Below, one piece after another: positions 6,652 to 13,425 of a stretch of 36,281 bases of DNA. The notes beneath the pieces are model-generated. The model was not told the origin of the DNA. It made no database searches and saw nothing but the letters and a program-made list of their open reading frames with translations. Origin of the DNA: a virus; the IMG/VR virus record IMGVR_UViG_3300046005_000589, positions 1 to 36,281 of that record. One strand, written 5' to 3'. The position numbers were made by a program, and so were the translations under genes. Numbering within the stretch: position 1 is the stretch's first letter; every line of letters begins with the position of its first letter.

Positions 6652-6884
6652 TACATTTTTTTAGGTAATTGCTGATCGCGCAATTTTTTATTCCAACGGG
6701 CCTTGGCAGCACCTTTTTTACGTTTGCGCTCAGTAGTGGGCTTTTCAAAAAACATTCTGCTTCTTAGATCTTCAAGAAGTCCAGAATCATCTACTTTTTG
6801 TTTGAATTTCCTTAAGGCTGTGTGCAGTGGCATGTCTCCCACGATAACCTTATTACCTATAAATGCTTTATTGTTTTTGCTCAT
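6648..6884 (-). CDS. rpsU: Ribosomal protein bS21 homologue
   Basis: A 78-residue basic protein. Residues 12-78 follow bacterial bS21 closely: an N-terminal strand (NKVIVGD), [13 protein letters not shown], then the family hallmark [14 protein letters not shown] (about residues 45-58) and a Lys/Arg-rich tail. bS21 sits on the 30S platform near the anti-Shine-Dalgarno region and helps initiation. Phage-borne bS21 genes are known and are thought to exchange into host ribosomes. The ATG lies inside the end of clpX (17-nt overlap), so translation is probably coupled to clpX. It has an N-terminal extension of about 7 residues compared with E. coli S21. Confidence 0.9.
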
Positions 6885-8097
6885 TTTTTACTTTATTAAA
6901 AATCATAACTGCTGGTCTCCCTTCAACAGTATCTTTACTTATTCGAATTGTGGTTAAACCTCTTTCGACAAGGTTTACTGCATCAAATTGGTAAGGTAGT
7001 AGAATTTTTTCAATAATGTTCTTTAAGCCACGGGCATTGGTTTTAAGTTCTTTGGCTTTACGTGCAATTTCTCCCAATGCAGCATTGTCAAATTCCAGTT
7101 TAATTCTGTCTATCTCAAACATGTATTGATACTGTCTAATTGGGCTATTCTTTGTTTCTAACAGAATTTTAACTAATTGTTCCTCAGTTAGCTCATCCAC
7201 GTTGGTAATTAGACCAAAACGTCCAACAAACTCAGGAATCAATCCGTATTTGATCAAATCCTTAGTTGTTACCTCTTGGTAGTAGTTTGTGTCAGTTTCC
7301 ATTTCCACATTTGCGGCAAAACCTACAGAACGCTTGTTAGTGCGTTGCTGTATCAATTTATCTAGGCCAACAAATGCACCGCCACAAATAAACAAGATAC
7401 TGCGTGTGTCAATTTCTTGCATATCATTACCGGGATGTTTACGTTTTCCGGAAGACGGCACTCTAACCACACTGCCTTCAATCATCTTGAGCAATGCCTG
7501 TTGAACGCCCTCGCCGCTAACGTCACGAGTGATACTGACACTTTCGCCCTTGCGAGCAATTTTATCAATTTCGTCAATATAGATGATACCGCGTGAAGCT
7601 TTTTCTATATCACCGTCTGCTTCATTGATTAATCGTGTAAGGATGCTTTCAACATCGTCACCTACATAGCCTGCTTCTGTAATACCTGTGGCATCACAGA
7701 TAGCAAATGGTAGATCTAAATATTGTGCAATTTTACGTGCCATCATAGTTTTGCCACAACCAGTTGGTCCTAGCATTAGCACGTTGGTCTTTTCTAACTC
7801 AATATTAGGGTTAGAGTGATTGATACGTTTGAAGTGCTGACTAACTGCAACACTGAGTGCAATCTTAGCATCTTCCTGGCCGATCACATACTCGTCAAGA
7901 AAGTCTTTAATCTTAACGGGATTGAGTAGCTTAGACTCGTCGGTTCGAAATGGTTTGATCTTTTCGTCTCTGAGTATGTCAACGCATAGGTCAACACAGT
8001 CATTACAGATAGCCGCATTTTCTCCAACTATTAATTTTTCAACGTCCTCTTTGCTCTTACCACAAAAGTCACAGACGTGTTCTTCCTGCTTTGCCAT
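6868..8097 (-). CDS. clpX: ATP-dependent protease unfoldase ClpX
   Basis: A full-length 409-residue ClpX. The N-terminal zinc-binding domain has Cys9, Cys12, Cys31 and Cys34. AAA+ features: Walker A GPTGCGKT (110-117), pore loop GYVGDDVE, Walker B IIYIDEID, the RKH loop (KRKHPG), sensor and arginine-finger region PEFVGRFG, and ARGLKNI in the C-terminal subdomain. The ClpP-docking IGF loop appears as VGF (RSVGFAA). ClpX unfolds substrates, including proteins bearing the ssrA tag (C-terminal LAA), and feeds them to ClpP. No clpP lies in the window, so it would use host ClpP or act alone. ATG at 8097 is preferred over TTG at 8100; AAAGG precedes it. It overlaps the upstream gene by 29 nt. Confidence 0.96.
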
Positions 8098-8479
8098 CAA
8101 ATGCCTTTTCTAAAAATGATTCAATATTAGTTATCCGATTTTGATTTATATAATGATAAACTGCGGATGTGTTTTCATTAGTAACCTTATAGAATGTTTC
8201 TTTCTTACCTAACATAAAACCGGCCAATGACTCTGTGATATAATTTAGACCATCTAAGTCTATAAACTTATACTCGCATCTATTCAACGCATGAAACAAC
8301 CAAGGCAGGTCAATCTCATGATCGTAAAAATAAACATTAATATTTTCCGTAATATCGGAATTTGCCAACCACTCGCTGACTTTTTCTTGATCCGTATCAC
8401 TTAGGTGCATAAACAACACACTATATGATTCGTTTTCAAAAATATCAGGTGGAGTGATTAGTGTAATTTTACCTTCCAT
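8069..8479 (-). CDS. Unknown protein upstream of clpX (136 aa)
   Basis: I do not recognise this family. It is an acidic protein with a likely alpha/beta fold: ITLITPPDIFENESYSVLFMHLSD, then NINVYFYDHEIDLPWLFHALNRCEYKFIDLDG (read in parts), resembling a small regulator with a receiver-like pattern of hydrophobic strands. AAGGA lies just upstream of the ATG. It begins 1 nt after the stop of the membrane protein and its end overlaps the clpX start, so the three are probably co-translated. The context allows a role as an adaptor or partner of ClpX, but nothing in the sequence proves it. Confidence 0.7.
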   Translation of the reverse strand: MEGKITLITPPDIFENESYSVLFMHLSDTDQEKVSEWLANSDITENINVYFYDHEIDLPWLFHALNRCEYKFIDLDGLNYITESLAGFMLGKKETFYKVTNENTSAVYHYINQNRITNIESFLEKAFDGKAGRTRL

Positions 8480-12536: not shown

Positions 12537-12566
12537 ATTATATATCAGTGTTTGCACTAATGTCAA
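12537..12566 (-). promoter_or_regulatory. Consensus sigma70 promoter for the outer-membrane protein
   Basis: TTGACA (complement of 12561-12566), 18-nt spacer, TATAAT (complement of 12537-12542). Perfect hexamers, predicted to be strong. Confidence 0.85.
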
Positions 12567-12576
12567 TAGATTCTGA

Positions 12577-12602
12577 ACAAAAGAAACCCGCCGAAGCGGG
12601 TT
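12577..12602 (-). terminator. Rho-independent terminator after the tmRNA gene
   Basis: Minus strand: AACCCGC, TTCG, GCGGGTT, then TCTTTTG. Third copy of the same terminator, one A shorter than the other two. Confidence 0.9.
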
Positions 12603-12645
12603 CTTGCTATTTTCTGTTACGAGGGATAACTCCCCTAAGCTGAGT

Positions 12646-12678
12646 TTAGGCAGCTAATGCGAACTGTGAGTCGTTTGC
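12646..12678 (-). other. tmRNA tag reading frame (ANDSQFALAA, stop)
   Basis: GCA AAC GAC TCA CAG TTC GCA TTA GCT GCC TAA encodes ten residues. The E. coli tag is ANDENYALAA. The start (AND) and end (ALAA, the ClpX/ClpA degron) are kept and the middle differs. Confidence 0.93.
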
Positions 12679-12790
12679 GGTTACTTTGTTTTGCTTCTTC
12701 GACCGGGTTACCCCAATCCTAACGGCTTCTACATTGCCGGACTGTCCATTTCAATACTCTTGACCCAATCGATCCTGTGTCAGGCCCATC

Positions 12791-12846
12791 ATAAACATAC
12801 TTCATGGATGAACCCACTTGTTACCTTGCGGCTAGAGTATGTTTAT
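12791..12846 (-). repeat. 11-bp inverted repeat flanking the tmRNA linker
   Basis: ATAAACATACT at 12791-12801 and its exact reverse complement at 12836-12846. In the precursor RNA this stem would extend the acceptor stem and present both ends of the linker for removal by host RNases. The last base of the arm is the A of the CCA end. Confidence 0.8.
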
Positions 12847-13016
12847 GGTGGACCTGGCGGGCACTGCCCCCGCGTCTTGAATCCTTTTCTGTCTACTTCA
12901 TACAGTCTTAACTTTTGACAGACCTCCCAGGGTGTGTGTGGCCTCTGCCGAGCCTGCAGGAATCTCACCTACTGCCTATCTGCTACGCAAACTTGCCCCT
13001 GCGAACGCACTCATAT

Positions 13017-13163
13017 TTAATTAATACGAGTATAATTCAATACATTACCCGAGCCATATTGGCTTTCGGCAATTAGTTTGGCTTCCCAATCGTTGTTTGC
13101 ATTAACGCGAACGTGTGCAGTTTGATAAGGATTTAAACGGATCCAAACTTCATAAAGATACAT
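13017..13163 (-). CDS. Small ORF between the cold-shock gene and tmRNA (48 aa)
   Basis: Begins MYLYEVWIRLNPYQ and ends GNVLNYTRIN; it contains a plausible strand-helix pattern (AHVRVNANNDWEAKLIAESQYG). The ATG lies 2 nt past the cold-shock stop with AAAGAAAG upstream. It resembles small phage proteins in which a short peptide binds a core complex, but I know no family. The tmRNA -10 candidate (TATACT, complement of 13029-13034) lies inside its last codons. I call it real with moderate confidence because of its tight spacing and ordinary composition. Confidence 0.55.
   Translation of the reverse strand: MYLYEVWIRLNPYQTAHVRVNANNDWEAKLIAESQYGSGNVLNYTRIN
13029..13034 (-). promoter_or_regulatory. 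Possible -10 element for tmRNA
   Basis: TATACT, about 20 nt before the presumed acceptor piece. I see no good -35 at 17 nt, so tmRNA may instead be read through from the cold-shock promoter. Confidence 0.3.
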
Positions 13164-13165
13164 GA

Positions 13166-13375
13166 TTAATCTTTCTTTATCGGTGTAATGTTGTGAGCTT
13201 GTTTACCTTTGTCGCCTTCTACCAATTCGAACTCAACTTCTTGATTGGTTTTCAGCGTTTTATATCCGTCCATTTTAATTTGACTAAAATGAGCAAATAT
13301 ATCATCTGTAGTTCCTGCCGGAACAACAAATCCAAAACCTTTGGAATTATTGAACCATTTTACTATTCCCTGCAT
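13166..13375 (-). CDS. Cold-shock domain protein (CspA family)
   Basis: A 69-residue single OB-fold protein of normal CspA length. RNP1 is KGFGFVV (about residues 12-18) and RNP2 is DIFAHFS (25-31, with Ala in place of the usual Val). It should bind single-stranded RNA or DNA and melt secondary structure, acting as an RNA chaperone or anti-terminator. Its own sigma70 promoter lies at 13397-13425 and AGGAAC precedes the ATG. A 48-residue ORF and tmRNA follow on the same strand with no terminator between, so they may share a transcript. Confidence 0.93.
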   Translation of the reverse strand: MQGIVKWFNNSKGFGFVVPAGTTDDIFAHFSQIKMDGYKTLKTNQEVEFELVEGDKGKQAHNITPIKKD

Positions 13376-13396: not shown

Positions 13397-13425
13397 ATTA
13401 TATACGTTTCTTTGTGAAAAGTCAA
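13397..13425 (-). promoter_or_regulatory. Sigma70 promoter for the cold-shock gene
   Basis: TTGACT (complement of 13420-13425), 17-nt spacer, TATAAT (complement of 13397-13402). The leader is about 17 nt. Confidence 0.82.

Follow-up and report, generated by a model that had tools for sequence, protein, structure and literature searches.

A circularly permuted two-piece tmRNA gene with alphaproteobacterial-type loops in a T4-like phage contig

Identification of a permuted tmRNA gene

We found a circularly permuted, two-piece tmRNA gene on the minus strand of a 36,281-base IMG/VR virus record (the window, meaning here the whole stretch of DNA that was analysed), and judging from its sequence we put the probability that it is a functional, phage-resident gene at about 0.88. 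The identity of the locus was confirmed by a cmscan of the entire window against Rfam, which gave two matches above curated cut-offs, both at this locus. The match to tmRNA_permuted (RF04321) covered the full model (1-213) at positions 12907-12646 of the minus strand and scored 103.8 bits against a cut-off of 47; with that score and an E-value of 2.2e-19 in an all-Rfam scan, a chance match is ruled out. In the same scan alpha_tmRNA (RF01849) reached 60.3 bits, above its cut-off of 50. A permissive scan of the tmRNA stretch gave beta_tmRNA (RF01850) 72.1 bits, below its cut-off of 84, so that of these two subtype models only the alpha model passed, although the beta model gave more bits. The cyanobacterial subtype RF01851 had no match listed in the Rfam scans, whose output suppresses overlapping matches of the same clan. 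A preliminary description of this DNA, made from the letters alone, had proposed a permuted tmRNA, had suggested searching with the alpha, beta and cyanobacterial models, and would have withdrawn the proposal if no permuted model matched; the match to RF04321 bears it out, with the subtype result divided as above.

With default settings ARAGORN missed the gene, which is a warning for tmRNA surveys that may pass over this loop type. With the slightly lowered threshold of -ps95 it reported a tmRNA called "Permuted", with the resume consensus agtaaccgcaaacgactc and the tag ANDSQFALAA. A one-piece reading was rejected: the halves rejoined by script gave no one-piece ARAGORN match, and a wrapped sequence was again called permuted.

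Anatomy of the gene

Read along the minus strand from 12965 to 12584, the gene consists of an acceptor half, a 58-nt spacer, a coding half with the tag and an intrinsic terminator, that is, with the acceptor half preceding the coding half and the spacer in between, as in RF04321. The acceptor half, the 3' tRNA-like part, occupies 12846..12965, its start depending on the model (12907 for RF04321, 12963 for alpha_tmRNA and 12943 for the beta model). It contains the 5' strand of helix P2a (GAUUCAA, 12877..12883), a T-arm with an alphaproteobacterial-type T-loop (GCGGG-GGCAGUG-CCCGC, 12857..12873), and the 3' strand of the acceptor stem, CAGGUCC, followed by the discriminator A and an encoded CCA (12846..12856). 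The spacer (12788..12845) is followed by the coding half, which extends to the stop of the tag at 12646 (12646..12787; Rfam scan and ARAGORN), the mature 3' end lying before the terminator. The coding half opens at G1 with the 5' strand of the acceptor stem (GGGCCUG, 12781..12787), which forms all seven pairs with 12856-12850, G3-U70 included. Next come the D-region ACACAGGAUCGA (12769..12780), which is of alpha type and coupled to the T-loop type, and the 3' strand of P2a (UUGGGUC, 12762..12768). A hairpin, GAUUGGG-GUAA-CCCGGUC (12701..12718), seen in the sequence and in the centroid fold, lies between P2 and the tag. The preliminary description had correctly placed the 7-bp stem with G3-U70, the end of the CCA (12846) and the start of the coding half (12787). 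It had also described an 11-bp inverted repeat bounding the linker; the repeat is there (UAAACAUACU at 12845-12836 with AGUAUGUUUA at 12801-12792) and is 10 bp long, or 11 if A12846-U12791 is counted. Four unpaired bases, UGAU, separate this spacer helix from G1.

The resume codon GCA, the tag ANDSQFALAA and the stop TAA (12646..12678) were placed identically by ARAGORN and the Rfam model, in agreement with the earlier reading, and give the gene the resume codon, short tag with a small or hydrophobic end, and stop that RF04321 calls for. A longer frame, AVRIGVTRSKKQNKVTANDSQFALAA, was rejected as an artefact of a loose start rule. The tag had been described as novel: it is not in the ARAGORN tag list and was not found in 399 sampled Burkholderiales genomes, which were searched with a TCN-serine pattern only, but we saw it in 17 other loci that we fetched. 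The gene thus retains its resume codon, a tag ending in ALAA, the encoded CCA and the alanine identity pair G3-U70. Folded without constraints, the minimum-energy structure contains the T-arm, the spacer helix and the acceptor stem that joins the halves; the total energy for the 390-nt stretch is no more than mildly low (z -1.65).

Covariation and the spacer helix

Covariation was examined in a set of 115 distinct phage sequences whose spacers measure 30 nt or more. Standard pairs filled 100% of cells in the acceptor stem, with both sides changed at 4/7 pairs, and 100% in the T-stem (5/5 pairs), figures that are partly built in, as the search required both stems. The search placed no such demand on P2a or the spacer helix; P2a was paired in 96% of cells with both sides changed at 7/7 pairs and the spacer helix in 91% with both sides changed at 10/10, compared with 31-58% for these two helices in slid-strand controls. 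Covariation in relatives and the fold therefore agree that the acceptor stem and P2 form between the two halves, as in RF04321.

A spacer helix of at least 7 bp was present in 81% of beta-type and 64% of alpha-type distinct phage spacers, versus 4-5% of shuffled ones; among bacterial spacers the proportions were 54% (beta) and 30% (alpha). Its commonest register runs from the first base after CCA (offset 0) to 4 nt before G1. A covarying helix that keeps a constant distance to the two cut sites leads to testable predictions on how the precursor folds and is processed. Our literature search found no description of the helix; as that search was made without the key paper of Sharkady and Williams (2004) on the betaproteobacterial two-piece tmRNA, we do not claim the helix as new.

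Spacers of three other phage loci (L084, L087 and L011) hold T-arm-like hairpins, e.g., AGTGGTTCAATTCCACT and TGAGGTTCGAATCCTCA in L087. These hairpins may be tRNA remnants or a processing element. As a general feature of spacers they were rejected, with 2 of 199 distinct spacers passing a strict test (0.06 expected).

T-loop and D-region types

In sampled genes of alphaproteobacterial type, a T-loop GGC[AG]GU occurs with AGGNTCGA (or AGCTTCGA) downstream of the acceptor stem; in beta-type genes the T-loop TTCGANT occurs with GGTTTCGA. Among 483 loci we counted 218 with TTC and GGNTTCGA, 202 with GGC and AGGNTCGA, 55 with TGC and AGGNTCGA, and hardly any mixed forms; the D-region in these counts was partly fixed by the search patterns and the T-loop was left free. 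Over about 480 sequences the two types are strictly coupled. The pair in the window, GGCAGUG with CAGGAUCGA, is of alpha type. A coupled switch of T-loop and D-region again makes testable predictions about folding and processing of split tmRNA precursors.

Phage context

The description of the gene as phage-borne holds: besides being an IMG/VR virus contig, the window encodes homologues of rIIA and rIIB, exonucleases, both ribonucleotide reductase subunits, and endolysin-like, tail-spike-like and virion structural proteins, one of the structural proteins being closest to those of T4-like cyanophages. With this gene content and this match, the label "T4-like" is reasonable. Auxiliary genes encode PstS, ClpX, a cold-shock protein, a fatty-acid desaturase and an S-adenosylhomocysteinase-like protein (annotated by eye from sequence). 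ARAGORN found no other tRNA genes in the window. In a related contig (L015), over 25 tRNA genes are packed into some 8 kb, and the stretch examined gave no tmRNA match.

Upstream of the tmRNA on the same strand lie a cold-shock domain gene (13166..13375; Pfam CSD, 97.8 bits) and a 48-residue ORF (13017..13163), the latter a reading frame only. A sigma-70-like site, TTGACT-17-TATAAT (13397..13425, minus strand), matches the consensus at 11/12 positions; although about two such consensus matches are expected by chance in the stretch, it is probably the start of a transcript in which the cold-shock gene comes first, followed by the ORF and ssrA. A cold-shock gene on the same strand within 2 kb upstream of a permuted tmRNA was seen at 34/410 viral loci, of both loop types. 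The intrinsic terminator (12584..12603, minus strand) has 8 pairs, 5 of them G-C, followed by CTTTTGTT. Just past it, at 12537-12566 on the minus strand, is a perfect 12/12 sigma-70 consensus (TTGACA-18-TATAAT), a promoter-like site that precedes a small ORF of secreted or outer-membrane-like type and pstS.

Relatives and origin

A blastn search with the tmRNA region found no match in 50,697 phage records, and therefore no isolate among them is close at the DNA level. Pattern scans of IMG/VR, in which we kept viral loci with a 7/7 acceptor stem and a tag, yielded at least 411 viral loci with a permuted tmRNA, the window included; the number is not exact and not free of bias, because the scans were chosen by pattern and IMG/VR contigs may include misassigned bacterial DNA. 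Syntenic relatives of the window are L002, L003, L098, L103 and L004, and in contigs that share its neighbouring S-adenosylhomocysteinase gene (L002-L004, L008-L012) the permuted tmRNA lies 1.9-4.4 kb downstream of it. In trees the window groups with L086, L004, L082, L384, L012, L383 and L554, a clade that nests among beta-type phage tmRNAs, adjoined by L085, whose loop is intermediate. The nesting holds with full sequences and with both loops removed (97/94 for a 20-row set without loops), and resident bacterial beta genes and alpha genes fall in other clades. The data support phages as the closest relatives, with no sampled bacterium appearing to be a close donor; we found no nearest sequence that would place the origin in a specific bacterium among those sampled. 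With no close bacterium in the sample, long residence in phages fits better than a recent capture.

A bolder reading, to which we give somewhat less than even odds, is that of a mosaic phage lineage, in which an alphaproteobacterial-type T-loop and D-region came to sit in a beta-type body with its tag by coupled change or recombination inside phages; on this reading permuted tmRNA precursors of all kinds would also carry a selected spacer helix that clamps the halves together before processing. The mosaic gives the better tree, short of proof. If all alpha-type sequences are forced into one clade, so that the window is held with the alphas, the log-likelihood falls by 24-30 units, yet an AU test does not reject that single clade (p-AU 0.14 without loops, 0.20 with), and the roughly 160 usable columns on which the trees rest are too few to decide origin. 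These values leave some room for the gene having come whole from Alphaproteobacteria or their phages, as has been proposed for the phage Melnitz, its tag and body converging later on the beta type. GGC[AG]GU with AGGAUCGA, common to all sampled alphaproteobacteria and many viral tmRNAs, would be expected from such an acquisition; we nevertheless consider it rather unlikely, as both trees place the window clade within the beta-type phage set beside L085.

The preliminary description had instead read the short ALAA tag as favouring capture from a betaproteobacterial host. Part of that reading stands: the tag ends in FALAA, the beta model outscores the alpha model in bits, and the body sits in a set of beta-type phage tmRNAs together with one Cupriavidus sequence. 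However, the T-loop and D-region are of alpha type, the nearest rows are all phages, and resident beta ssrA genes are set apart in a clade of their own (100/100), so that outside its loops the molecule groups with phage tmRNAs and not with resident genes. The Cupriavidus sequence in the phage set belongs to an element present in several copies, on chromosomes and on a plasmid, and is not of the resident ssrA type, and the tag itself went unseen in the Burkholderiales sample given above. Recent capture of a resident betaproteobacterial ssrA is thus improbable, well behind an acquisition from Alphaproteobacteria.

In Cupriavidus pinatubonensis HN-2, at least four copies of a permuted tmRNA with the tag ANDEKFALAA are spread over two chromosomes and a plasmid, and similar copies are present in other Cupriavidus. 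The multicopy loci (L113, L143, L151 and L159; also L112, L124, L135, L146, L156 and L164) are unlike the resident-type gene L136 and fall among phage tmRNAs in trees. In L112 and L143 a gene with an H-NS C-terminal domain lies immediately upstream of the copy. These extra copies look like a mobile or repeated element.

Predicted function during infection

From the gene and its surroundings we infer transcription, processing, charging, tagging and a benefit to the phage, the most likely function being ordinary trans-translation during infection with host SmpB and proteases. A single precursor RNA would probably start at the promoter-like site before the cold-shock gene and end at the terminator (12603-12584), folding with its halves joined by the acceptor stem and P2 and with the spacer helix stacked beyond the CCA end. 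Processing of permuted tmRNA precursors has been proposed to proceed through cleavage by RNase P and tRNase Z, and a two-piece tmRNA works in Caulobacter (PMC3985003). Here cleavage at G12787 would fall to host RNase P, and that after the CCA at 12846 to a host 3' nuclease, yielding two RNAs kept together by base pairing. Host AlaRS could charge the molecule with alanine by way of G3-U70, and host SmpB and EF-Tu would deliver it. We found no SmpB in 23 viral records searched (the window record and 22 others), and the tmRNA would therefore depend on the SmpB of the host. Ribosomes stalled on mRNAs broken during takeover of the cell would be rescued and recycled, to the presumed benefit of the phage, and their nascent chains tagged with ANDSQFALAA. 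The ALAA end is the part of the tag recognised by cellular proteases (PMC3985003), and tagged chains would pass to proteases of the ClpXP type.

The window encodes a full-length ClpX homologue (6868..8100, minus strand; Pfam zf-C4_ClpX and AAA_2 above cut-off) with zinc-binding and AAA+ domains, a GYVG pore motif and VGF in place of the usual IGF loop; with ClpX-like proteins in other phage records it shares about 50% identity. It is possibly a downstream partner of the tmRNA; we speculate that it could work on tagged chains together with host ClpP, and its presence alongside a tmRNA offers a lead for phage control of tagged-protein turnover. ClpX was present in 5/28 other tmRNA-bearing viral records (6/29 with the window), which are fragments and mostly short; a rule of co-occurrence was rejected, as such records support no conclusion.

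A decaying or inhibitory relic without tagging would resemble what has been reported for phage DS6A, whose coding-less tmRNA inhibits host tmRNA in E. coli (PMC11915505), and the non-canonical T-loop and only mildly low fold energy of the window gene could be taken in that sense. The same T-loop, however, is present in active-looking alphaproteobacterial genes, and the window gene keeps a complete tag with its stop codon, its resume site and every stem, the stems covarying as well, which makes a relic highly improbable, the least likely of the alternatives considered here.

Comparison with known systems

The preliminary description had thought a permuted tmRNA in a T4-like phage rare or undescribed, which is not the case. 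The myophage Melnitz, with T4-like transcription and replication proteins, was described with a two-piece tmRNA in 2022 (PMC9004378), and the same work lists 53 two-piece tmRNAs suggested by ARAGORN among 133 distinct tmRNA structures from 402 of 18,146 phage genomes, 50 of the 53 being from marine or aquatic samples. Another study, from which the merged permuted model applied to the window comes, gives 79 distinct tmRNA sequences of bacteriophages (PMC11915505). Given Melnitz, those 53 cases and the viral loci found here, the window gene is not new in kind; it is a well-formed addition to the phage split tmRNAs already reported in 2022, and with its syntenic relatives it enlarges by one group of T4-like phages the known set of viruses equipped with a split ribosome-rescue RNA.

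Melnitz, a Methylophilales phage, is like the window in being a myophage with T4-like proteins, a complete permuted ssrA and an aquatic source (PMC9004378). Set beside the window by its published description, Melnitz differs in having a glutamine riboswitch with its ssrA, whereas the Rfam scan of the window gave no riboswitch, and in having a tmRNA placed with those of alphaproteobacteria, whereas the body of the window gene groups with beta-type phages. The alphaproteobacterial tmRNA (RF01849) shares with the window its permuted order, GGC-type T-loop and AGGAUCGA D-region, and the window passes the cut-off of that model; tags of the sampled alphaproteobacteria, in contrast, are mostly of ANDN type (one, the L414/L415 type, is ANNN), and the window differs in its tag, in a longer spacer and in the position of its body in the tree. 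With the betaproteobacterial tmRNA (RF01850) it shares the permuted order, a FALAA tag and, in many members, a spacer helix at the same offset. The betaproteobacterial genes differ in having the T-loop UUCGANU and the D-region GGUUUCGA; the window scores below the RF01850 cut-off, and CCA, often not encoded in those sampled, is encoded in the window.
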